IMG/VR virus record: IMGVR_UViG_3300027861_000223
Span: 1 to 21,560 of that record
DNA: 21,560 nucleotides
Source of the DNA: a virus
Strand: one strand, 5' to 3'
Positions 2,363 to 13,494 of the stretch are shown here, in pieces (the stretch's first letter is position 1; each line of letters begins with the position of its first letter). The notes under the pieces were generated by a model. The model had not been told where the DNA came from. It saw only the letters and a program-made list of their open reading frames with translations, and searched no databases. The position numbers and the translations under genes were made by a program.

Positions 2363-2893
2363 ATGAAAGAGATATATAAACAATATGAAAACACAAATTA
2401 TTTCATATCTAATTTTGGTAACTTAAAAAACAAAAGAAACAAAGTCTTAAAATGTGATCACGCCAATGTAAGATATAAGCAAACATCTTTATATATAAAC
2501 AAAAAACCAAAAAAATTCTTAATACACAGGTTAGTGGCAAAGGTTTTTGTGCCAAACCCAAAAAATCTAAAAATTGTCAATCACATCGACGGCAACAAGA
2601 AAAACAATCATGCTAAAAACCTTGAATGGTGTACTCAAAAACACAATATAAGACACGCTTGGTCAATTGGCTTAACAACATCAAAGGTGGGAGAAAATAA
2701 GCACTCTTCAGTCTTGGATGATATGCACATTTTAACCATCGCAACACTTAAAGATGGCTACAACAGAAATAAGCTGGCTAAATATTTACCAGTAAAAAAC
2801 AATCAAAAAGCCACATTAAAATCAAAGAGAGAGCAAATTAGGCGCATAATAAAAGGTGAAAGATGGAATCATCTAAATTACTTATTTAATTAA
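2363..2893 (+). CDS. HNH homing endonuclease with NUMOD4-like N-terminus
   Basis: This 176-aa protein has an N-terminal NUMOD4-like stretch (YKQYENTNYFISNFGNLKNK) and an HNH_3 core: IHRLVAKVFVPNP, then VNHIDGNKKNNHAKNLEWCT. The His-Asn pair and the final Asn of the metal-binding beta-beta-alpha fold are present. The C-terminal part (about residues 110-176) is basic and probably binds DNA. Family members are free-standing or intron-borne nickases and nucleases that spread their own genes. This one is solitary, lies on the strand opposite to all its late neighbours, and ends with a 4-base overlap into the 3' end of the next minus-strand gene. That fits a mobile gene that landed between two structural genes. 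It is rich in lysine and AAA codons. Family identity is secure; the cleavage site is unknown. Confidence 0.93.
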   Translation: MKEIYKQYENTNYFISNFGNLKNKRNKVLKCDHANVRYKQTSLYINKKPKKFLIHRLVAKVFVPNPKNLKIVNHIDGNKKNNHAKNLEWCTQKHNIRHAWSIGLTTSKVGENKHSSVLDDMHILTIATLKDGYNRNKLAKYLPVKNNQKATLKSKREQIRRIIKGERWNHLNYLFN

Positions 2894-3429
2894 TTTATGG
2901 GTCTATAAAACAAATTAAGACCGCTATTAAATCCGCTTATCATAGCAGTATTAAGTTTTAAGTATAAAGATTCACCTTCAAGAAAAGTTGTCTTTGCAAA
3001 TGTTGGCAAAACTGTTCCTGTCGGATTGACCTCTGTATTTGTTACTAAGTTTTTAAAAGCTGAAACTTGAGCCGTTGCTGTGACTTTTGGTGTTACAGTA
3101 AAAATGCTTCCCTGATCAACACCATTGACATCAATCCAATTTATATCAAATTCAGTTGTTCCACTTACACCGCTTTGATTCCAAAAGTTAACGCCTGTTA
3201 TTTCCGAGTTAAAAAAGAAAGCAGTGACACCATCATAAAAATTAAGACCAGTTGCAACGCCGTATGATCCATTTAAAACCCACCTATGTGAATCAACTTG
3301 ATAGGTGTTTATAAAATTATTTTGAGCAGCAACACGAGTAAAAACAGCCTCACTTATAGCGGCTTTATAACGCACATCACCAACCCTCAACTCTTCTCTT
3401 ACTGGTATAACTAAATCACTGTCAGCCAT
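2890..3429 (-). CDS. Virion/tail appendage protein, unknown family
   Basis: This 179-aa protein is not assigned to a named family. It begins MADSDLVIPVREELRVGDVRYKA (shown in part) and then is rich in aromatic and beta-forming residues, with glycine turns, as in small receptor-binding or tail-tip domains. It has no signal peptide or membrane segment. AAAGGA lies eight bases before the ATG, supporting the start. It follows the tail hub gene after about 50 bases, where a weak imperfect inverted repeat (TTTACT/AGTAAA) is visible. Position downstream of the hub suggests a tail-tip or accessory fibre component. This is inference from context. Confidence 0.6.
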   Translation of the reverse strand: MADSDLVIPVREELRVGDVRYKAAISEAVFTRVAAQNNFINTYQVDSHRWVLNGSYGVATGLNFYDGVTAFFFNSEITGVNFWNQSGVSGTTEFDINWIDVNGVDQGSIFTVTPKVTATAQVSAFKNLVTNTEVNPTGTVLPTFAKTTFLEGESLYLKLNTAMISGFNSGLNLFYRPIN

Positions 3430-3480
3430 TTTAAATCCTTTCTTGTTTTAATTTTACTCACAACATTTTCAAAAGTAAAT

Positions 3481-5907
3481 TTAGATAAAAGTATATGGGA
3501 AGCCATCATCATTAAAATTACTTCTATCAACTATGTATCCAATTTGTGGTGTAAATGGTAAATCACTCTCTAAAGTCACTGTGTTACCAACTATAGACTC
3601 TATTCTTATTAGTTCACTGGTGCTTGTTTCTGAATAATTGTCAGCGTGAACATATATTAAAGATGGCACTACTAAATTATCTGGTAAATCTACATCGAAT
3701 GTCTTGGCATCAGTCACACTTGTTATTGTTACCCTTGCCGTATTATATCCAAACTGCAATTTATACTCAGAATCAATTCCAGCACCAGCATCATTGTAAT
3801 CTGGCACTTCAACTATATATCCAGCTCCAGGTGTAAATGATAGAGGTGTATCTAAAATTAATGCAGCATTATTTGTCGGGTCAATTTCAAAGGTAACCGT
3901 ATCATCATCAAGATAGTCTTTACTTCTAACCCTAACGTTTTTACCTCTAAATATTTCCCACTGAGATGTTGGGCTTCTAAAGCTTCCAAGATCATTTATT
4001 GGCTCTATTATAAGCCTCGTATCAGTTGAGCCAGTAACAACACGACTAGATAAGCTTACAACAACATATCTTGATTCTATTTCAAAAGCACTAGAGATTA
4101 GTGATAATTTTATTTTGCCAGTTTTAATATTTAGAGACTTATTTGTTACCTCATAAAGCTTTGATCTTTGACCGCTACCAGTTCTTAAATCTTTTGTTTT
4201 TGTTTCAGATGGAAATGCCTCTATAATGTCGCCAACTTCTACGGCGTATCCAGTTTTGTAATTAACCTCAACACCTTCAAAGTAAGTCGGCGCTAGAGAA
4301 TATTTATCTATCAACCTTTGTGATAAATTGTTAACTAAATTAAATGTTTCAACATTGCTTCTTAATCCAGTAGATTCTATTTTTAATTGCTTCTTACCAA
4401 CCTTTATTCTTTGCACTGATGTATTATTTAAAACAACCTTACCAGTTAAAAATTTGTCTTCTATAGAATCTTGATTGAAGCGCCAGACATAAGTATTATA
4501 TAAATATTTATGAACGGATCTTCTCTGTTTTATTTTTGTAATATTTGTAATCGTATTATTGTCTAATATTGGTAGTATATCGCTACTAAATGGCGGCACT
4601 ACAAATTTGACTGATGATCTTGCTTTTCTAGGGATAGAATAAAGACCCTGTGGAAAAAATAATTCAGAATCCATATATGTTTTCATATCGTCTATTGAAT
4701 CTTTAATATATAAATCATAATCAATAAAGTTAGAGCTAAAAGAAGCTTTTAAGTTTTCAAACTCTTCAATGTCAACTTCGTTAGAAATCATTCCCAAGCC
4801 AGTTGGTAGAACATTATATTTAGACTTATATTTAAAAGTTCCGAGATATTCGTTTTCAGTTACTAGAGTTTCAAATGTTTCAATAAAGCTGTCACCAGTT
4901 TCTAATTGCCCAAAGCCTCTAATCGTATATGTATTTGTATTTAATGTTGTATCGAGCTGAAAAGTATCGCCAACAACTAAGCCGGTCTTTTCTTTTATGT
5001 CGTAGTAATCAAATATAATTGTATTTGCTAGCTGCTCTGTTATAGAAATAAAATTTACACTCTTTGGAATGTCATCGCTTTCAAAATATTCATTACCCTC
5101 TTCGGATAGCATTATTTTTAAAGATAAATCTAACGGCTTGCCCTGCATTCTGTAAAATGTTTCAAACTCTGTTACTTCATGCGGATTAGCTAGAGTATTT
5201 AATTGCGCTCTTATTACTTCAATGCTTGTATCTGTAAATGATAGCACTTGCATTAATTCATCTTCGATTCTTATATAAGTTGTTAATGCATCTTGAGATT
5301 CATACATTCCAACAGTGTCTAATACTGGTATTGTAGTTACTAAATTATCTATATCAGCACTAAGCTCACCTTGAAACTTTTCTAAAAACACTTGTCGCTT
5401 TAATGATTCACTTGAAGCCAGTGACACCATTACGATTCCAGCTTCCGTATAAAAATCTACAACTATACCTCTAAAAATAGCTTGATAATCTTCTGGGTAA
5501 ACAGCCGCTTCATTAAAGAAGCCAATTGAGAAAGTAGCTTTTTTTCCCAGTATTTCAGTAATTGAATCGAATGATAATGCTTTAGAGACCTTACCGTCAA
5601 CATCTACAATTGCAACATTAACAGTTGATATTGAGCTGGTGCTTCCTTTATCTGGTCTAATTTGTTGAGTGATACTAGTAGTCGTGCCTTGCAATGAAAT
5701 CCAATCAACTGAATTTGGATCGTTTATAGTTCCATCCCAGTTTAAATTATCATCCCAATTAGCATTAGAATCATCCCACTCAAGCGTTTTAAATACAGGT
5801 TGAGCAGCATATAGAGTATCTACACCTTCAATGTCTAAAGCTATTTGTGGCTGTACACCAACTTGTTTTAATAATGATTGTGCCGTAACACTTAAACCAA
5901 CAGCCAT
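3481..5907 (-). CDS. Putative tail hub / central tail-tip protein
   Basis: This large 808-aa protein has features of phage tail hubs. Near residues 120-175 is a segment ending YQAIFRGIVVDFYTEAG, the kind of closed barrel domain shared by gp27-like hubs. Around residues 560-620 it has a long strand-rich region with VEVGDIIEAFPSE and KLYEVTNKSLNIKTGKIKLSL, resembling the hub repeats in which GDIV is followed by a final L-x-L strand. The N-terminus includes WDDSNANWDDNLNWDG, a tryptophan-aspartate rich linker. The C-terminal 160 residues hold two copies of a roughly 50-residue module (see finding). The start ATG overlaps the lipoprotein stop by one base. A role at the tail tip, contacting the tape measure and fibres, is likely but based on pattern rather than a clear family match. 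Confidence 0.6.
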   Translation of the reverse strand: MAVGLSVTAQSLLKQVGVQPQIALDIEGVDTLYAAQPVFKTLEWDDSNANWDDNLNWDGTINDPNSVDWISLQGTTTSITQQIRPDKGSTSSISTVNVAIVDVDGKVSKALSFDSITEILGKKATFSIGFFNEAAVYPEDYQAIFRGIVVDFYTEAGIVMVSLASSESLKRQVFLEKFQGELSADIDNLVTTIPVLDTVGMYESQDALTTYIRIEDELMQVLSFTDTSIEVIRAQLNTLANPHEVTEFETFYRMQGKPLDLSLKIMLSEEGNEYFESDDIPKSVNFISITEQLANTIIFDYYDIKEKTGLVVGDTFQLDTTLNTNTYTIRGFGQLETGDSFIETFETLVTENEYLGTFKYKSKYNVLPTGLGMISNEVDIEEFENLKASFSSNFIDYDLYIKDSIDDMKTYMDSELFFPQGLYSIPRKARSSVKFVVPPFSSDILPILDNNTITNITKIKQRRSVHKYLYNTYVWRFNQDSIEDKFLTGKVVLNNTSVQRIKVGKKQLKIESTGLRSNVETFNLVNNLSQRLIDKYSLAPTYFEGVEVNYKTGYAVEVGDIIEAFPSETKTKDLRTGSGQRSKLYEVTNKSLNIKTGKIKLSLISSAFEIESRYVVVSLSSRVVTGSTDTRLIIEPINDLGSFRSPTSQWEIFRGKNVRVRSKDYLDDDTVTFEIDPTNNAALILDTPLSFTPGAGYIVEVPDYNDAGAGIDSEYKLQFGYNTARVTITSVTDAKTFDVDLPDNLVVPSLIYVHADNYSETSTSELIRIESIVGNTVTLESDLPFTPQIGYIVDRSNFNDDGFPYTFI

Positions 5908-6161
5908 TAGTTACACCTTCCGAATTTTAAGCATTTGTATAATCTAAACTCTTTATCTTCAAAATATAGCTGAATAGTTTCATATTCTTTAGGGTCAACA
6001 CATAAGAAATTAGTAGTATCTATTTCAATACCATTGCGAAAACCAGTGCCAACACTATTAATAGTTGGTATTACATTCGGTCTATTGAAATAACTATTTG
6101 GTGTCGTGCAACTAACTATAAATATCAACGAGAACAACACTAAGTTTCTTTCTATCTTCAT
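5907..6161 (-). CDS. Small lipoprotein, candidate outer-membrane spanin (Rz1-like)
   Basis: This 84-aa protein has a lipoprotein signal: MKIERN, a hydrophobic stretch LVLFSLIFIVS, then Cys18 (lipobox IVSC). The mature part is about 66 residues with several prolines near its start (TTPNSYFNRPNVIP). The gene begins inside the preceding 78-codon gene in another frame (50-base overlap), the arrangement typical of Rz/Rz1 spanin pairs. In that family the outer-membrane lipoprotein meets the inner-membrane spanin to fuse the two membranes at lysis. The mature part is less proline-rich than lambda Rz1. The lipoprotein call is strong; the spanin role is inferred from size, overlap and neighbours. Confidence 0.68.
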   Translation of the reverse strand: MKIERNLVLFSLIFIVSCTTPNSYFNRPNVIPTINSVGTGFRNGIEIDTTNFLCVDPKEYETIQLYFEDKEFRLYKCLKFGRCN

Positions 6162-6348
6162 CTGTTTTAGCCTGTGAAATAGCCTTGATAATCGCAGCTC
6201 TTTTCTGTTGTTTTGTATAAATTACTTTTTGTGCTTTATCTATTTGAAGGTCGATATATTTATCAATAAACATATCTATATAATTTGCGACTATAGGCAC
6301 AGCTTTAGCCACAGCAAATACACCAGTAACTATAGTCGCTAAGCTCAT
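6112..6348 (-). CDS. Small membrane protein, candidate inner-membrane spanin or holin
   Basis: This 78-aa protein has one hydrophobic segment near the N-terminus (residues 2-23, SLATIVTGVFAVAKAVPIVANY). A charged helical tail with many Lys, Asp and Gln follows (residues 28-70). An N-terminal anchor plus helical tail is the plan of Rz-type inner-membrane spanins, and the lipoprotein gene starts within its 3' end. It is short for Rz, and a small holin is the alternative. The ATG overlaps the stop of the upstream gene by one base (TAATG), so expression is coupled. Confidence 0.55.
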   Translation of the reverse strand: MSLATIVTGVFAVAKAVPIVANYIDMFIDKYIDLQIDKAQKVIYTKQQKRAAIIKAISQAKTDEDRKKLSVVLVDIYS

Positions 6349-6611
6349 TAGGCTTGTTCTACTTTTTTAATCATTTCGTATAGCTTGCCAATAATAGCAA
6401 TGATTTCGGCTTGCTCAAGATCTTTAATTTCTTCACCAGCTTCTTTTAATCCACTGAATGCTTCTTTTAAAGTTTCAAACTCTTGTGCAATTTTTACTAG
6501 ATGTGCAATGTCGTCAACTCCGATACCACCTTTTGAAATCTTTTTAGCTTGCTCACCAATTAATGTTAAGCCGTCAATTAATTCACCAATCTCTTTAATA
6601 CCTTTACTCAT
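6348..6611 (-). CDS. Small helical phage protein, lysis cassette
   Basis: This 87-aa protein is predicted to be almost all helix with Lys/Glu-rich amphipathic stretches (MSKGIKEIGELIDGL..., GVDDIAHLVKIAQEFETL...). It has no membrane segment and no cysteine. Similar short SKGIKE-type proteins occur beside lysis genes in other phages, from general knowledge, but their function is not settled. It sits between a TM/coiled-coil protein and the spanin candidates, so lysis timing or assembly is possible. A plausible Shine-Dalgarno (GGGAG) precedes the ATG by about seven bases. Confidence 0.6.
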   Translation of the reverse strand: MSKGIKEIGELIDGLTLIGEQAKKISKGGIGVDDIAHLVKIAQEFETLKEAFSGLKEAGEEIKDLEQAEIIAIIGKLYEMIKKVEQA

Positions 6612-6629
6612 TTTAACTCCCTTGTTAAT

Positions 6630-6881
6630 TTATTTTTGTGATTCTAGCCATACCATTAATTGACCTTGACCACCCTCTAAACTATGTAATCGTTCCCACA
6701 CTCTGTCTAGCTCTTTCTTGTTTTCCTTAGATCTCTCGTCAGTGGCATCATGTTTTGTAGTGTATTCTACCAATCTTAATTCCACTGAAGATATTTTCTC
6801 TAAAGTTTTTCTTGTAAAGTAAGCATTTACCATTAAAAGTAAACTAACAAACGACCCAAAAAGAACTAATATATTTTCCAC
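6630..6881 (-). CDS. N-terminal TM plus coiled-coil protein, holin/spanin-type
   Basis: This 83-aa protein begins with GTG. Residues 3-22 (NILVLFGSFVSLLLMVNAYF) form a transmembrane segment, and residues 24-75 form a charged helix with heptad-like spacing (LRLVEYTTKHDATDERSKE, then LDRVWERLHSLE). This layout occurs in XhlA-like lysis proteins and in short inner-membrane spanins, so it could supply either function in the cassette. The GTG shares its first G with the stop of the 49-codon gene upstream (TAGTG). Membrane topology is clear; the exact role is not. Confidence 0.6.
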   Translation of the reverse strand: MENILVLFGSFVSLLLMVNAYFTRKTLEKISSVELRLVEYTTKHDATDERSKENKKELDRVWERLHSLEGGQGQLMVWLESQK

Positions 6882-7030
6882 TATTTTTTGCTCTTATATT
6901 TAACATCTCTTTCATGTAAAACTTTTGCAGTAACACAATAATCACCTTTAAATTTATCAAACTCACAATGGTTGTATTTTTCTTGCCAGTTTAAAAAAGA
7001 TGCTACAATAATTCCAAATAAAATACTCAT
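6881..7030 (-). CDS. 49-aa single-pass membrane protein downstream of the AlkB-like gene
   Basis: This small ORF starts with MSILFGIIVASFLNW, a short hydrophobic anchor, followed by a polar tail with two cysteines (HCEFDKFKGDYC) and a lysine-rich end. Its ATG overlaps the TGA of the AlkB-like gene (ATGA), and its stop overlaps the GTG of the next gene (TAGTG). Both junctions are tight, so it is very likely translated. The two Cys, nine residues apart, could form a disulfide if the tail is periplasmic. I do not recognise a family. It may belong to the lysis cassette rather than the hydroxylase. Confidence 0.6.
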   Translation of the reverse strand: MSILFGIIVASFLNWQEKYNHCEFDKFKGDYCVTAKVLHERDVKYKSKK

Positions 7031-7848
7031 GAATTTTCCTTTAATTTTAATATATACCTATCTAATCTTTTATTCATTATCCTATGGAAGATCGGCATAG
7101 GCAATATTAATAATACCATAAGAAGCGGTGTTCCATACGGAACAACTGGCATACCTCTGACCCTTCCGAGCTTATCAAATGGCTTATATACATCACTGTG
7201 ATGATTAGAGTGAACGTGAAGATTAAAACCGAAATAATAGCCTAGTAAGCTGTAATCATCCCAAGCGTATTTAACTTTACTTTCTTCACTCACTGGTAAT
7301 TCATCTAATCCATAGTGTTGTAAATAGTTGCCCGAACCTGTCGTGTAAAAAAAGCCTATATTTGTCATCAACATATAAAGAATACCAGAAAAGCCGAAAA
7401 GAAGGTAAATAAAGCATATTACAAGAAAAGAGAGAAACATTTTAAGTTTGCACCTTTTTATTCCAAAAAAAATAATAGGGCTTAATATATATTCATATAT
7501 ATATTTCAGTCTATTTTTATTTCTTGTAGGGTGACCCATATCATTTTTTGTGTTTGCGTAAGGGTGGTGTGAAAAAAGGTGGTGCTGCTCAACCCACCAT
7601 ATACAACTAAAAACTTGTTGCATATAATATAAAGTTTTTGTATACCATTTTTTATTTCTAAGATGAATCAGTTCGTGAAAAAGCCCCACTGATGGCGTTA
7701 TAAAGCCAACAGACCAGCCAGCCATTATTGAATATATTAAATCGTGATCTTTTAGCATATACGGAATTATAAAATAAAAAGATAACTCCACTATTAAATA
7801 TAGGTGTATAACAAAGAATCCGCTTTTATCCATTTTCTCTATAACCAT
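7027..7848 (-). CDS. AlkB/XylM-like membrane di-iron hydroxylase (fatty acid desaturase superfamily)
   Basis: This 273-aa integral membrane protein has the full histidine pattern of AlkB-type hydroxylases: HELIH (His58, His62), HLFSHH (His90, His94, His95), NYLQHYGL (His178, matching the NYxEHYGL signature of AlkB) and HSNHH (His213, His216, His217). These nine His bind two irons in AlkB, which oxidises terminal methyl groups of alkanes, fatty acids or related chains with electrons from rubredoxin. Hydrophobic stretches lie at about 11-30, 38-57, 120-170 and 236-255. It is shorter than AlkB (about 400 aa) because the first transmembrane pair is missing; a separate 51-codon ORF just upstream appears to encode it. 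No rubredoxin or reductase is in the window, so host partners would be needed. Substrate is unknown. It lies in the late block between the adhesin and lysis genes, so it would act late in infection. Confidence 0.88.
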   Translation of the reverse strand: MVIEKMDKSGFFVIHLYLIVELSFYFIIPYMLKDHDLIYSIMAGWSVGFITPSVGLFHELIHLRNKKWYTKTLYYMQQVFSCIWWVEQHHLFSHHPYANTKNDMGHPTRNKNRLKYIYEYILSPIIFFGIKRCKLKMFLSFLVICFIYLLFGFSGILYMLMTNIGFFYTTGSGNYLQHYGLDELPVSEESKVKYAWDDYSLLGYYFGFNLHVHSNHHSDVYKPFDKLGRVRGMPVVPYGTPLLMVLLILPMPIFHRIMNKRLDRYILKLKENS

Positions 7849-7994
7849 TTTTTAACCTTAATTCTAATCATATTTATAAAAACAACCAAAGGAAATAATA
7901 GCCAGCAATAAAACAAACCATCAGGGAAATATTTAACAAGAGCTATGGTCATTATAAAATTTGTAAAGCTAAATAAATACAAAATATCTTTCAT
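7839..7994 (-). CDS. 51-aa two-TM protein, probable detached N-terminal hairpin of the AlkB-like enzyme
   Basis: This small ORF encodes two hydrophobic helices, about residues 4-20 (ILYLFSFTNFIMTIALV) and 27-44 (LFYCWLLFPLVVFINMI), linked by KYFPDG. AlkB and XylM begin with just such a hairpin, and XylM has a comparable W-L ... F-P pattern in its second helix. The 273-aa gene that follows lacks this pair. The ORF starts with an ATGA overlap on the upstream stop, with GAAG just before the ATG, and overlaps the AlkB-like start by 10 bases in another frame, across a run of six A. One extra A would fuse the two into a 322-aa protein. It may be a true small subunit, a frameshift product or a broken gene. 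Confidence 0.62.
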   Translation of the reverse strand: MKDILYLFSFTNFIMTIALVKYFPDGLFYCWLLFPLVVFINMIRIKVKKWL

Positions 7995-8362
7995 GAAGTA
8001 AACGCATCGCACAGTTTTTGATTTATAACAGCCTTCTCTTCATCAGAACAAAAATAGTAATATTTATAAAACTCTTGAGCTTTATCTTTTTGCCCAACCT
8101 CTAGCGTTGGAATTGGAAACTGACTATTACAAGGATTGTCTATTAAAAACTGATTAAGAACTCCAACAGCCCAAGCTTCTTTTCCTGTATGATTAAAAAG
8201 GTCTGTGTTCCCAGTAACCCAAGCAATCATATCTTCCAGTATGAACTCTGGTTTTGTTCTCATTATATTTACAAGATCAGTAGTTGTGTATGATTGATTA
8301 ACATCGATATACACTTTTAGTTTATCACATAAATTGTTGTAAATACCTTGCCCATTTCTCAT
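7991..8362 (-). CDS. Hypothetical phage protein after the glycine-rich adhesin
   Basis: This 123-aa soluble protein is not recognised. It appears mainly helical and acidic-to-neutral, with stretches such as TTDLVNIMRTKPEFILEDMI and a C-terminal KYYYFCSDEEKAVINQKL segment. It has no signal peptide or membrane segment. Its ATG overlaps the glycine-rich gene stop (ATGA), and its own stop overlaps the start of the 51-codon gene (ATGA). Tight coupling to the adhesin candidate suggests a fibre assembly chaperone or small appendage, but nothing in the sequence proves it. Confidence 0.6.
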   Translation of the reverse strand: MRNGQGIYNNLCDKLKVYIDVNQSYTTTDLVNIMRTKPEFILEDMIAWVTGNTDLFNHTGKEAWAVGVLNQFLIDNPCNSQFPIPTLEVGQKDKAQEFYKYYYFCSDEEKAVINQKLCDAFTS

Positions 8363-9423
8363 AATACCACCTGTACTGTTCCGTTATTTCCAGATAATCC
8401 TGCTGCTCCACCTGCTCCACCGTAAGCACCGAGTACTCCACCGCCGCCGCCGCCACTGCCGCCTGAGACAGATGTGCTAAACGAATACGAAGGTGCTTGG
8501 ATTATGATGTTGCCACCAGTGCCACCTGCACCACCACCACCGCCGCCACCAGCAGAGTTAGCAGCATTTCCTTCATTACCTGCGCCACCGTTAAAACCAT
8601 TCGATCCAGATGCAATTACAGAACCAGAACCAGTCATAGGTAATACAGAATAAAGAAAAAGTATTCCTCCGTGAAGCCCTTTGTGACCGCCACCGCCACC
8701 ACCGCCACCTTGGAATGTTATATTTATAGTTATTTTATCAGAGGGATTTCCTGGTATATAGTTGTGTGAACCACCGCCACCACCAGAACCGCCACCAGAA
8801 CCACCATCTTGAAGGGCTGTACCACTATTACCACTTCCACCAGTACCACCGTTTGAGTTGGTGACATTGCCTGCCCCACCAGTACCAGCATAGGGATTTC
8901 CTGTACCAGTAACATTAGAGCCATAGCTCCCATGTCGCCATGCTCCAGCCGCACCAGAACCATTGTTAGATCCACCAGCACCACCTGCCATAACACCTTC
9001 GCTACCGCCGCCACCGCCACCACCATAGCCATTTGTTCCTGCCCCACCTAAACCACCAGGAATTTGGCTACCCTTGCCACCAGTACCACCATTTCTCTGA
9101 GTGGCTGTATAGCCATAATTAAAACCACTAGATGTTGTTCCCGCATATGAGTATCCATTTCTTTCGGTCGCACGACACAAGATTGTACCATCTACATTAA
9201 ATGTACCCGAACAATATATTTCAGCAATATTCCCATTGCCGGTTATATTTAAAGTACCACCAGATTGAATATCAATTGAAGTATAAGCTTTATTTGTTGG
9301 TGCAGTTAAAGTTACCGTTTGACCGTTTAAAATAATTAAATCGCCTTCACTTGGTGGGAAGAATGGTGGAACACCGCCGCCAGAAACCTTTTTATTCAAA
9401 ATAGATATTGGCAAGACTTTCAT
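8359..9423 (-). CDS. Glycine-rich tail fibre/adhesin candidate
   Basis: This 354-aa protein has two parts. Residues 1-95 are beta-type (GDLIILNGQTVTLTAPTNK, SGGTLNITGNG, GTFNVDGTI), like short parallel-helix rungs. Residues 110-354 are dominated by glycine with runs of five to eight Gly separated by Ser, Asn, Ala or Thr loops. Poly-glycine sandwiches of this sort form the receptor-binding part of T-even-like Gp38 adhesins, where loops between Gly strands contact the host surface. Here the same idea is inferred; no sequence homology is claimed. The gene is far more GC-rich than its surroundings because of Gly codons, and this creates a long false ORF in another frame. It lies next to a coiled-coil fibre gene, consistent with a tail-end adhesin. 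Confidence 0.7.
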   Translation of the reverse strand: MKVLPISILNKKVSGGGVPPFFPPSEGDLIILNGQTVTLTAPTNKAYTSIDIQSGGTLNITGNGNIAEIYCSGTFNVDGTILCRATERNGYSYAGTTSSGFNYGYTATQRNGGTGGKGSQIPGGLGGAGTNGYGGGGGGGSEGVMAGGAGGSNNGSGAAGAWRHGSYGSNVTGTGNPYAGTGGAGNVTNSNGGTGGSGNSGTALQDGGSGGGSGGGGGSHNYIPGNPSDKITINITFQGGGGGGGGHKGLHGGILFLYSVLPMTGSGSVIASGSNGFNGGAGNEGNAANSAGGGGGGGAGGTGGNIIIQAPSYSFSTSVSGGSGGGGGGVLGAYGGAGGAAGLSGNNGTVQVVL

Positions 9424-9765
9424 TTATGCTATTTCCTTAATTTCCGCAACGTAAACCACGCTATTTATTTTAACGAAAGTGAAAAGAGTGGTCGTGCCAT
9501 TAACAACAGTTCCATCATAATTGAGATCAGACTTTACACCAACCGGAAGAGTTATTGCTCGGTCTATTGTATCTGTATTCGTAATTGCAAGTATAATTGA
9601 TTTACCATTCACATCATTTGAAAAGGTAAGTGTGATAGCTGTAGATATTGATTTGTGATAAGTGTCACCTAGTGCCCAGTCAACATCTAAAGCCGTGACA
9701 GCTATATCAAGTGGAAGTGATTCTTTAACATTTTCAAATATCGGTGTGTTTCCTGTATAACTCAA
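9424..9765 (-). CDS. Small beta-domain fibre-associated protein
   Basis: This 113-aa protein shows a domain often found in phage fibres: a central ALDVDWALGDTYHKSIS, TLTFSNDVNGKSIILAITNTD, then ITLPVGVKSDLNYDGTVVNG and TTTLFTFVKINSVVYVAEI. The pattern (strand, GKSI strand, PVGVK turn, TLFTFVKI strand) is that of a jelly-roll-like domain attached to tail fibres. Here it stands alone between a coiled-coil fibre and a glycine-rich adhesin, each within ten bases or less. It probably caps or links fibre parts. No enzyme motif is seen. Confidence 0.62.
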   Translation of the reverse strand: MSYTGNTPIFENVKESLPLDIAVTALDVDWALGDTYHKSISTAITLTFSNDVNGKSIILAITNTDTIDRAITLPVGVKSDLNYDGTVVNGTTTLFTFVKINSVVYVAEIKEIA

Positions 9766-9774
9766 AGTATTCCC

Positions 9775-10815
9775 CTAGTATATAAACCAATCTGTTCCAT
9801 CGCTTATAATATTAATTGATTGATAATTTGATGTGATAGAAAAATCACTAGCAACACCATCTATATTCTCAACACCATTTCTGACTATATTTATTGGATT
9901 GTTATCAACATCGCCAGTGATATCTTTTATAACACAATAGAAACTCGCACTTGGCAATGGCAATTGAACATCTAAACCACTTGATATTGGATAGAGTTTT
10001 TTATTTTCCGCTGTAAAGTTAACAGACTGAGAACCATCAACCGACAAGTCATTAGTAGCTAAAATGCTAGAAATTTTTATTTTCTTTTTATTGAATGAAT
10101 CTTCCGAATCTTCTAGTAATAAAATATCATCTTCGACCGATAATAGTTTTTCTGTAAATGTATTTATATCGCCAGACACTCTTTTTAACTGAGCATCGTC
10201 AGTGACATTTGCCAATCCGACATCTGATTTAGTTATCGTAACGATTCCAACTTGACCATTTACACTATTTACATCTGATGCCGAAATTTCAACATAAATT
10301 GAACCTGACCATCTGTAAGTTTTTCCAGTGTCTATTGCTACATATATTTTACCAGTTTCGCCAGTTACGGGAAAGCTTGCAAGGTCTGCATATTCTTCAA
10401 CATCATCAACATAAGACGGAAGATTGATAGCTGGAACTTTTGAATCACCACCAAGAGGTGCTATTCCATTTGCAGCACCAACACTATCTTCTATTGCTTG
10501 TATGTCTGTTGCATTTGTTCCGATGTTAGTTGTGTTTGTTCCAATATTCGTTTCATTCGTGCCAATTCTAGTTTCATGATCTATTAATTGTAATTCATTA
10601 TCGCTAATTCTAGTTTCATGGTCAGCAAGTTCTACATCATTGCTATTAACATCACTTCTAAGTGTATTTAAAAATGCTTGTACATCTTCTACATGCGTGC
10701 CAATCGAACCTTCTCTTAGACTAAAAGTGCCGACAGTAGCATCGTTCACAGTTTTATCTAGCCATGTTGCGTTCGCAATCGCAGAACTTAATTTACTCTT
10801 AAATAATACTGGAAT
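9775..10815 (-). CDS. Trimeric coiled-coil tail fibre protein, likely ATT start
   Basis: From GTG at 10749 the protein is 324 aa, but the frame stays open upstream and reads IPVLFKSKLSSAIANATW followed by LDKTVND, a typical fibre N-terminus of the tail-attachment type. AGGTGG lies six bases before the ATT at 10815-10813, directly after the upstream stop. I therefore start at the ATT (346 aa). A heptad-rich region follows (repeated DHETRI and TNxTNIGTN units, roughly residues 45-90), then a YADLASFPVTGETGKIYVAIDTGKTYRWSG-like module, then SDVGLANVTDDAQLKR (a fibre shaft motif shared with many tail fibres), then a beta C-terminal domain ending DGTDWFIY. It probably forms a trimer attached near the tail tip. 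Confidence 0.75.
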   Translation of the reverse strand: MPVLFKSKLSSAIANATWLDKTVNDATVGTFSLREGSIGTHVEDVQAFLNTLRSDVNSNDVELADHETRISDNELQLIDHETRIGTNETNIGTNTTNIGTNATDIQAIEDSVGAANGIAPLGGDSKVPAINLPSYVDDVEEYADLASFPVTGETGKIYVAIDTGKTYRWSGSIYVEISASDVNSVNGQVGIVTITKSDVGLANVTDDAQLKRVSGDINTFTEKLLSVEDDILLLEDSEDSFNKKKIKISSILATNDLSVDGSQSVNFTAENKKLYPISSGLDVQLPLPSASFYCVIKDITGDVDNNPINIVRNGVENIDGVASDFSITSNYQSINIISDGTDWFIY

Positions 10816-10821
10816 ATTTCA

Positions 10822-10827
10822 CCACCT
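10822..10827 (-). promoter_or_regulatory. Shine-Dalgarno for an ATT-initiated fibre gene
   Basis: AGGTGG on the minus strand starts two bases after the stop codon of the upstream tail gene and ends six bases before an ATT codon. No ATG, GTG or TTG in the fibre frame is near it; the first GTG is 66 bases further on. Confidence 0.5.
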
Positions 10828-10828
10828 G

Positions 10829-11593
10829 TTAAAGTTTTCTAAATGTTAAAGTTTTTGTCTCAAAATATCCAACTAACTTTCTTGCATAAAGCTCATAAAG
10901 CTTAAAGCCAGTTCCTTTACTATCAATTTGAGTTTTTTCTAATAGAGTAGATTCAAAAACATTTGGATTCTCTAAATCAGCTACAAACTCAATAGGATTC
11001 TTATTAATAGCATAATTCAAGAATTGTCTTAAGTCACTTACACCAGTAGCATTTTCTTTGATAGCACCCTGTGGAATTATATCTGTTGCCAGTGTTATGT
11101 TGCATTCCATAAAAGAGTTTTTACCAAATGATACAACCTCAACAACTCCACTAGCTGATTCATTAACTGATGCTTGAGCTGTCTTTACATTGTCTTCAAA
11201 TGCAACGTATTCTTGGAGTAAGAATTGAGGCTCATAAAAGAAACCACTAGCAATATCAGACTCATAGCTATTTGATCCGTCTTTATCTGAAGTAAAACCA
11301 ATTAGGTTATACGCTGATATTGATGATTGCGTTCCGCTTGTTACTAATAATGCAAAGTTAGATGCGGCTGATATTGTTATTTTGCGAGTTAATCTATCTA
11401 TAGTTCCGCTATATTCTTGACCACCTTCAGCATTAAAAGCTTCTAATACTTTGCCTAGAAAATCATTTAGCGTATATGATCCGATTTCAATTTGTGAAGA
11501 TATTTCTCCAGCACCTTCATTAAAATTAATATAATCATTGCTAGATGATATTTCGTGACCGTATGTAAAACCTGAATAACTATTAATACTCAT
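10829..11593 (-). CDS. Putative distal tail or minor tail protein
   Basis: This 254-aa protein follows the tape measure gene, the usual place of distal tail and minor tail proteins. It begins SGFTYGHEISSSNDYINFNE, then SYTLNDFLGKVLEAFN and YSGTIDRLTRKITISA with SAYNLIGFTSDK. This N-terminal pattern (a small domain with GSYTL, a helix and R-x-T-R-x-I-T-I-S) recurs in tail proteins of marine siphophages, from general knowledge. The second half has mixed alpha-beta character. AAAGG overlaps the tape measure stop and lies seven bases before the ATG. Whether it is the distal tail ring itself is not certain. Confidence 0.52.
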   Translation of the reverse strand: MSINSYSGFTYGHEISSSNDYINFNEGAGEISSQIEIGSYTLNDFLGKVLEAFNAEGGQEYSGTIDRLTRKITISAASNFALLVTSGTQSSISAYNLIGFTSDKDGSNSYESDIASGFFYEPQFLLQEYVAFEDNVKTAQASVNESASGVVEVVSFGKNSFMECNITLATDIIPQGAIKENATGVSDLRQFLNYAINKNPIEFVADLENPNVFESTLLEKTQIDSKGTGFKLYELYARKLVGYFETKTLTFRKL

Positions 11594-11601
11594 ATATACC
11601 T

Positions 11602-13494
11602 TTAAGCAAATCTGGCATCATTTAATGATACGCCTTGCTTTCCAAATGATTCGTTCAAAGTTTCTGTTATAAATAATCCAAGCTCTTCTTGCTGCACAAG
11701 TGAGCCTTGAACCACTATTTCTACGTTTGTGTTTGGATCTCTTCTTTCTACATCTTGCTGCTCTATTGCTCCAGTATCAGAAAAGTCAGAACCAAATCCA
11801 ACCTGACCAGATACAGCACTTGCACCACCACCACCGCCACCGCCGCCAGATGCGCCTAAAGCACCAGATAGTAACTTTAATCCTGCACCACCAGCTATCA
11901 TCGCTGCACCACCAGCTGGATTGGGAGAAGCTAGAGTTGCTACACCCAGCTTAATATAATAGTCACCAAACGCACTAGCAACTTCACTAACGGTATTTTT
12001 TACACTTCCTATAAAGGCTTTATTTATATTCTCGCCATTGGCAAGAGCAGCGCCGATTGTTCTGAAAGCATTTCCAAAACCTCTAGTTGCTAAAGTATTT
12101 AAAGTAGCACCTATTTGAGATGCAGTTTGTTTACTATTCTTTGCAGCTGCAACAAAAGCACCACTAATATTTTCACTTGCATTTATAGCTGATTGCTCTT
12201 TTTTTCTATCTAGCTCAGCGAGTAAGTTTGTTTTCTCTGTTTCAATCGCTATAAAACTAGTTGCAAATTCTTGATCAGATATCAAACCTCTTTGATTTAG
12301 CTCAGTCAAAGCTTGTTCCCTAAGAAGTGCAGATTCTTTTATTCTTTCATCATTTTGAAGTTTAACTTGCGCTAATAATTGTGTCTTACTTAGAAGATTA
12401 CTGTTATCGTCATCAGCCCCACCGCCAGTATCTTCACCTTCGCTAGTCTTTAATATTTCTTTTCTTCTTTCTAATAGTGCTTTTAATTTAACTTCTCTTG
12501 CAGCAATCCATCCATCTAGTCTAGCAGTATCTTTCTCAAAAGATCCCCCAAAAAAGTAACTAGCACTATCTGGATTTAGCTCAGATTTGTTTTTTGAAAT
12601 TTCAGATATTTTATCAGCTATCTTAGCTATTTCTTGATCAACTTTTCCTAGCTCCGTACTTGCGTTGCCTATACCAAAAAGACCTATTCTAATTCCCTTT
12701 AGACCACCAGCAAAGTCATTTAAAAAGCCCAAGCCGCCTTTCAATCCCTCTATAAGTGTTTCGTTCTGAGTTATAAAAAATCCCAACTCTTCTAGCGTGT
12801 CACCAAATGTATTTCCGAGTTGATCAACAGCACCACTAAAAGTATTTACTTGCCCAGCAGCCGCACCACCAAATTTGCTATTAAGTTTTGTTAGTGTATT
12901 AGAAAAAGTCTCAGCATTATTTTTACCCTTTTCTATAACAACACCGTATCTTGAGAATGAGCCTATCTCTCCAGCAGCAGCTTTACCAACTAAAGTCGCA
13001 GCACTTCTAAGATCTATTCTTAAAGCGGCGGCGAAATCAGCAGTTGCTCTTGTTGCCTCACCTAAATCTTTTACAGTTAAGTCGCCTAGCTGTTGAATCA
13101 AAGCGGCTGTTTCTAATAACTCTTCATCGCCAAATCTAGTTGATTTTTGTATGTCACTCGCTAAGTCTTGTATCTGTTGACTTGCAGCCTGAGAAAATTT
13201 ACCTGTAATTTGTAGAGCTACATTTAAACTATTTATTGCATCTTCTTGGCGCTTAGCTAAATCTATTGATTGGGATATTAACCTTCCAACACCGACAGCA
13301 GCGATTGCAGTTCCTAGACCAGCTAAAGATGCTTTTAATCCAGAGCCAAGATTTTTAGTTTCTTTCTTAAATTCATTTTCAAACTTGCTACCTGATTTTT
13401 TACCAACTTGACCAGATTCTTTTTCTACTTTCTTTTTACCGCTAGAATCAAGCTTAGGATCTAAAATCATTTCAACAATTAATTTATCAGCCAT
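11602..13494 (-). CDS. Tape measure protein
   Basis: This 630-aa protein is the longest gene after the tail chaperones and has tape measure composition. The N-terminus is lysine-rich and helical (DSSGKKKVEKESGQVGKKSG). A hydrophobic segment at about 54-75 (GLKASLAGLGTAIAAVGVGRL) is followed by long Ala/Gln/Ser-rich helices. A second hydrophobic, Gly/Ala-rich stretch lies near 515-555 and ends in an eight-Gly run. At about 0.15 nm per residue, the family rule predicts a tail near 95 nm. The protein fixes tail length and later helps DNA entry. It starts with ATG directly after the GT chaperone stop (TAAATG). There is no lysozyme or peptidase domain that I can see. Confidence 0.9.
   Translation of the reverse strand: MADKLIVEMILDPKLDSSGKKKVEKESGQVGKKSGSKFENEFKKETKNLGSGLKASLAGLGTAIAAVGVGRLISQSIDLAKRQEDAINSLNVALQITGKFSQAASQQIQDLASDIQKSTRFGDEELLETAALIQQLGDLTVKDLGEATRATADFAAALRIDLRSAATLVGKAAAGEIGSFSRYGVVIEKGKNNAETFSNTLTKLNSKFGGAAAGQVNTFSGAVDQLGNTFGDTLEELGFFITQNETLIEGLKGGLGFLNDFAGGLKGIRIGLFGIGNASTELGKVDQEIAKIADKISEISKNKSELNPDSASYFFGGSFEKDTARLDGWIAAREVKLKALLERRKEILKTSEGEDTGGGADDDNSNLLSKTQLLAQVKLQNDERIKESALLREQALTELNQRGLISDQEFATSFIAIETEKTNLLAELDRKKEQSAINASENISGAFVAAAKNSKQTASQIGATLNTLATRGFGNAFRTIGAALANGENINKAFIGSVKNTVSEVASAFGDYYIKLGVATLASPNPAGGAAMIAGGAGLKLLSGALGASGGGGGGGGASAVSGQVGFGSDFSDTGAIEQQDVERRDPNTNVEIVVQGSLVQQEELGLFITETLNESFGKQGVSLNDARFA

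Follow-up and report, generated by a model that had tools for sequence, protein, structure and literature searches.

Two adjacent open reading frames (ORFs) in different frames, the larger encoding an AlkB-like protein, lie on the minus strand of the window analyzed here (21,560 bases, from IMG/VR), which also carries phage head, tail, and replication genes. The arrangement raises the question of whether the two ORFs are pieces of one enzyme and, if so, how a protein encoded in a single frame almost everywhere else comes to be divided. The 51-codon ORF overlaps the 273-codon ORF by 10 bases (7839 to 7848), which take in the last A of a run of six A's (A6); when the upstream frame is read to the A6 run and the downstream frame is read from there, the joined product is 322 amino acids (aa) long. 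A sequence-only reading of this stretch had reported these ORF sizes, coordinates, overlap, run, and join, and every number held when we reread the sequence. Overlaps between genes are frequent in this operon (−1, −4, −8, −10, −23, and −50). The ATG of the 51-codon ORF and the stop codon of the preceding 123-aa ORF share the sequence ATGA (gap of −4), and the stop codon of the 273-codon ORF overlaps the next ORF in the same manner (gap of −4). The features considered below are collected in Table 1.

Table 1. Features of the AlkB-like locus and the surrounding cassette
Feature	Position in window	Strand	Evidence or remark
51-aa ORF, two hydrophobic helices	7839..7994	-	Multiple-sequence alignment (MSA), shuffle tests, hydropathy, ATGA overlap with upstream ORF; ATG at 7994, TAG ending at 7839
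273-aa AlkB-like membrane di-iron core (TM3-TM6 region)	7027..7848	-	PF00487, phmmer to 8sbb/8f6t, AF2, Foldseek; ATG at 7848, stop ending at 7027
A6 run, site of the frame break	7848..7853	-	Sequence; the ATG of the 273-aa ORF begins with the last A of the run
AAGGTT with Shine-Dalgarno-like AAGG, upstream of the start of the 273-aa ORF	7854..7859	-	dG of −3.8
Uncharacterized 123-aa ORF, immediately preceding the hairpin ORF	7991..8362	-	29% identical homologue at the same position in the sister phage
354-aa adhesin-like protein	8359..9423	-	Sister comparison: first 110 aa 83% identical, remainder diverged, 40% glycine
Variable cassette (adhesin tip, 123-aa ORF, and enzyme)	7049..9004		Within the cassette, only 8489-8707 aligns with the sister (69%)

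The likeness of the 273-aa protein to AlkB goes beyond chance, and its core looks complete. It matched PF00487 (FA_desaturase) at 49.8 bits (E = 5.2e-13), above the Pfam gathering cutoff of 29.7 bits, and the only solved structures that it matched in phmmer searches were FtAlkB and FtAlkBG (8sbb/8f6t). An AF2 model, run with 23 relatives as the alignment, had a pLDDT of 87, with residues 1 to 6 disordered and the first helix beginning at residue 9; Foldseek matched this model to 8sbb (E = 1.2e-06, TMq of 0.80) and to 8f6t (TMq of 0.81). All nine histidines of the iron ligand list established for FtAlkB (PMC10113152) are present in invariant columns (H58, H62, H90, H94, H95, H178, H213, H216, and H217), falling in HExxH, HxxxHH, the H of NYxxHYG, and HxxHH. 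The protein thus shares with AlkB its fold, its histidine ligands, and the NYxxHYGL motif, but it differs in its low identity (16 to 18% in structural alignment), in having TM1-TM2 encoded in the other ORF, and in the replacement of the ligand Glu271 (NYxEHYG) by Gln177 (NYLQHYG). Gln is invariant at this position in the aligned relatives too, but the patterns used to retrieve them favored Q; Glu is found there in 77 of 80 viral AlkBs. As had been proposed from the sequence, then, the match to PF00487, the fold, and the histidines identify an AlkB-like protein without the TM1-TM2 hairpin. The six helices that AlkB holds in one chain are not found in one chain here, and the six-helix plan is recovered when both ORFs are taken together. 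The substrate tunnel of FtAlkB enters between TM1 and TM2 (PMC10113152), so in a core without these helices the access of substrate should be altered. General family scans named no rubredoxin gene in the window.

The small ORF was a candidate for the missing hairpin. Hydropathy (17-residue windows) gave two transmembrane segments, at residues 4 to 20 and 27 to 43, and in the MSA the ORF aligned from residue 1 with the N-terminal hairpin of Bacteroidota and Poseidoniales relatives. Its start motif, MKDILYL, compares with MKDLKYL or MKSIKYL in relatives (over a longer stretch, MKDILYLFSF versus MKDLKYLAAF in those from Bacteroidota). The joined length of 322 aa is comparable with the 316 to 350 aa of relatives; in the nearest short ones (Poseidoniales, 316 to 317 aa), the first histidine box lies at residue 111 or 112 and the next motif lies 118 residues on, and in the joined window sequence the corresponding values are about 106 and 117. 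The similarity in sequence is modest to marginal: against three hidden Markov models (HMMs), shuffled-hairpin controls matched or beat the joined sequence in 26/500, 13/1000, and 9/1000 cases. By itself the small ORF had no significant match in any HMM or family scan, and the codon usage score of its frame was not distinctive. The earlier identification of the small ORF as the first AlkB hairpin is thus backed by position, start, length, and topology in the alignment and only modestly by the shuffle statistics. Taken in combination, position, length, topology, and start make a common origin of the small ORF and the core likely, the sequence alone being no proof of it, and one ancestral gene now probably lies in two frames.

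The single-frame state is nearly universal among relatives. With the count limited to those with complete 5′ ends, hairpin and core lie in one frame in 148 of 149 (76 cellular and 73 viral), and at least 90 open residues precede the first histidine box in 75 of 76 cellular and all 73 viral sequences. The sole cellular relative with fewer, from a Rugosibacter MAG (L058), may reflect an assembly frameshift and would thus give a base rate for such breaks. The proteins closest in sequence are AlkB-like “fatty acid desaturases” of Bacteroidota, Poseidoniales, and Collimonas (L027, L112, L046, and P0001; 25 to 30% identity), which resemble the window enzyme in total length and in the position of the histidine box but are encoded in one uninterrupted frame. 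Searches with peptide patterns of the window protein turned up nothing closely related in viral contigs or genomes, and in the tree the protein sits on a very long branch beside another long one, so we name no donor. We found this exact split in no other genome. The sequence-only reading had suggested looking for the same split in related phages; what a sister phage has at this locus instead is a hairpin-less AlkB-like protein. A desaturase domain was absent from the other related contigs, most of which are fragments.

The sister phage (IMGVR_UViG_3300009079_000092; L014) is 95.2% identical to the window over 2891-7049 and 83% identical over 9004-12188. The two share the gene order of adhesin-like protein, small protein, and AlkB-like/PF00487 enzyme, and the part that varies between them begins within the adhesin tip and finishes at about the stop codon of the enzyme, such that the cassette changes together with the glycine-rich tip. 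The glycine-rich C-terminal part of the 354-aa protein looks like an adhesin tip; the protein had no Pfam or PHROG match above the cutoff, and searches with peptide patterns of the 123-aa protein found no relatives. Where the window has its enzyme, the sister encodes, as a single ORF, a 205-aa PF00487 protein (L014:8264-8881) that has AlkB-like histidine boxes and, beginning at the first of them, can be aligned with the window core (26% identity); it also aligns with a full-length AlkB-like protein from residue 163 of the latter on. Only one helix precedes its first histidine box. Its frame opens at its own ATG, which is preceded by AAAGG, immediately after a stop codon, which leaves that frame unable to encode TM1-TM3. 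Searches for relatives of this enzyme gave one weak Bacteroidota match and no phage or plasmid match. An AF2 model of it, made without an alignment, was poor (pLDDT of 55) and was set aside. Because the two enzymes are so divergent, replacement by recombination, rather than descent in place, is likely at this locus.

The sister enzyme is the best independent argument for an unfused core. Since an AlkB-like enzyme without the hairpin occupies the same locus, there is no necessity for the 273-aa core to be joined to a hairpin, and the lineage appears to tolerate hairpin-less versions. As the sister has no room for TM1-TM3, the window core probably starts at its own AAGG-ATG and is expressed by itself. 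The AAGG sits 7 nucleotides before the ATG, a Shine-Dalgarno-like placement typical for this phage; its dG is equalled or bettered in 18 of 26 listed genes, compared to 24% of internal ATGs, giving a likelihood ratio of ~3 for listed genes versus internal ATGs.

We consider the best explanation, with a chance a little short of even, to be that the hairpin is a separate ORF and the core is translated alone, within a variable cassette linked to the adhesin. On this view, the phage, which belongs to an uncultured lineage, would carry a divergent AlkB-like integral membrane di-iron oxygenase or desaturase in a cassette beside an adhesin. The ancestral gene would have encoded six transmembrane helices in a single frame, and in the present genome the TM1-TM2 hairpin would have been split off as an upstream ORF in a different frame. 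The core, with TM3-TM6 and the nine histidine ligands, would most likely be translated by itself from its ATG, by means of its own AAGG and of termination-reinitiation from the overlapping hairpin ORF, and the hairpin could serve as a small subunit in its own right or persist as a vestigial leader peptide. We infer both independent translation of the core and enzyme activity. Weighing against this explanation are the one-framed relatives, the marginal similarity of the small ORF to hairpins, its indistinct codon usage, the failure to find the split in another genome, and the consideration that, given the position of the tunnel in FtAlkB, a core without its hairpin may be inactive. A more specific version, in which the hairpin at the substrate entrance is a 51-aa subunit of a two-polypeptide AlkB-like enzyme, made by coupled translation in a lineage that sheds N-terminal helices and swaps the enzyme with the adhesin tip, strikes us as rather unlikely.

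The rival that survives best, although we also hold it to be unlikely, is an assembly or sequencing error in the A run, with the true genome encoding one uninterrupted 322-aa AlkB-like protein. That the split stands alone among 149 relatives, that it falls at a homopolymer, and that the joined length and the position of the histidine box suit unsplit relatives would all be expected of such an error. However, homopolymers of at least six bases occur at 31 other places inside open minus-strand genes, the 273-aa ORF itself contributing five, and those genes stay open; alignment of the flanking genes to those of the sister shows no net frame breaks, and no net frame-breaking indel is apparent in the 95%-identical flank. 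Illumina sequencing, if it was the method used, would rarely miscall a run as short as A6. A real and recent indel, which would leave the small ORF and the core as remnants of a gene that is broken or is off in part of the population, would account equally for a unique split at a homopolymer and would fit the very long branch of the protein. Against this, the nine ligand histidines and the remaining core are intact, the core has kept a Shine-Dalgarno sequence and an ATG, and A6 is short for a phase variation tract; we judge such an indel about as unlikely as an assembly error.

Far less probable is that the A6 run yields the 322-aa fusion, whether through programmed −1 frameshifting of ribosomes or through slippage during transcription. 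An AAA codon in the P site would re-pair perfectly one base back, and the core ORF starts the new frame. However, A6 followed by TGG makes no strong heptamer, there is no heptamer of the A AAA AAG type, and the downstream RNA fold was no better than those of shuffled sequences (z of −0.21), so that neither the slippery heptamer nor the stimulatory structure of programmed −1 frameshifting is found here; moreover, the core has its own start. A scan for RNA families found none. Of the earlier proposal that the two ORFs are one enzyme, the part that gained ground was the match in total length and the alignment of the hairpin, and the part that lost it was the one-base slip. Hardly credible is the idea that the small ORF has nothing to do with AlkB and encodes some other small membrane protein, for instance a holin-type peptide, the core being an ordinary short family member. 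Although the ORF alone has no HMM match and small ORFs with a membrane helix are common in the region, it agrees with the family hairpin in where it lies, in its length and start motif, and in the pattern of its helices.

Production of AlkB by a phage had been emphasized as novel, a point that the viral data overturn. In IMG/VR, 182 viral contigs matched AlkB; among the 80 kept for analysis, 16 have T4-core neighbors within the stretch that was fetched, and some are plainly T4-like. In one of them (L183), the AlkB-like gene (L183:3557-4621) lies between genes for a gp23-like major head protein and a gp19-like tail tube protein. AlkB in phages is thus not new. These viral proteins (L128 and the T4-like L183 and L164) belong, like that of the window, to the AlkB family and are encoded in phage contigs but, unlike it, are full length and unsplit, with no adhesin cassette adjoining in the contigs looked at. 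Neither of the two proteins scanned (L183 and L128) had a PHROG. Among phage records, the same gene was found only in Acinetobacter “phage” records carrying alkB1 among bacterial genes, the same records being the only ones returned in a search with the L183 protein. One of these, CAKLQH020000011.1 (L024), named Acinetobacter phage MD-2021a, carries alkB1 among ppiD, acyl coenzyme A dehydrogenase genes, and other bacterial genes and is apparently bacterial DNA bearing a phage name. Searches by title, abstract, or term counts found no papers on phage AlkB in the literature collection covered, which does not prove that there are none. Three points are new here: a hairpin separated by frame, seen in one genome and unproven; a sister enzyme that lacks the hairpin; and the linkage of the enzyme to an adhesin cassette.

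We infer from the presence of the adhesin in the same cassette that the enzyme could modify a receptor or the envelope. The putative enzyme might act on a host membrane lipid or a lipid-anchored surface molecule, and the resulting change could, for example, exclude superinfecting phages that use the same receptor. The main alternative would be a role in fluidity or lipid metabolism, in which terms phage lipid desaturases have been discussed (PMC7678222, PMC8224337, PMC8228385). The fatty acid desaturases of cyanophages and a Nitrospirota virus (PMC7678222, PMC8224337) are, like the window enzyme, lipid enzymes that phages carry and that belong to the membrane desaturase type, a likeness drawn from their descriptions, but they are described as auxiliary metabolic genes with no adhesin cassette. 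If the arrangement is real, the substrate entry hairpin of an AlkB-like enzyme would be detachable or losable, making a minimal catalytic core directly testable, and a phage membrane-lipid oxygenase would be tied to a variable host recognition module, which hints at receptor or membrane modification over carbon metabolism.

Two further genes in the window deserve mention. A 130-aa protein (1590-1982) containing SSHR...AIDIR recalls an M15-type peptidase (endolysin) and had no family match in PHROGs or NCBIfam. An HNH endonuclease gene (2363-2893) lies on the plus strand amid minus-strand late genes; it falls outside the alignment with the sister phage and therefore is probably a homing-type insertion.
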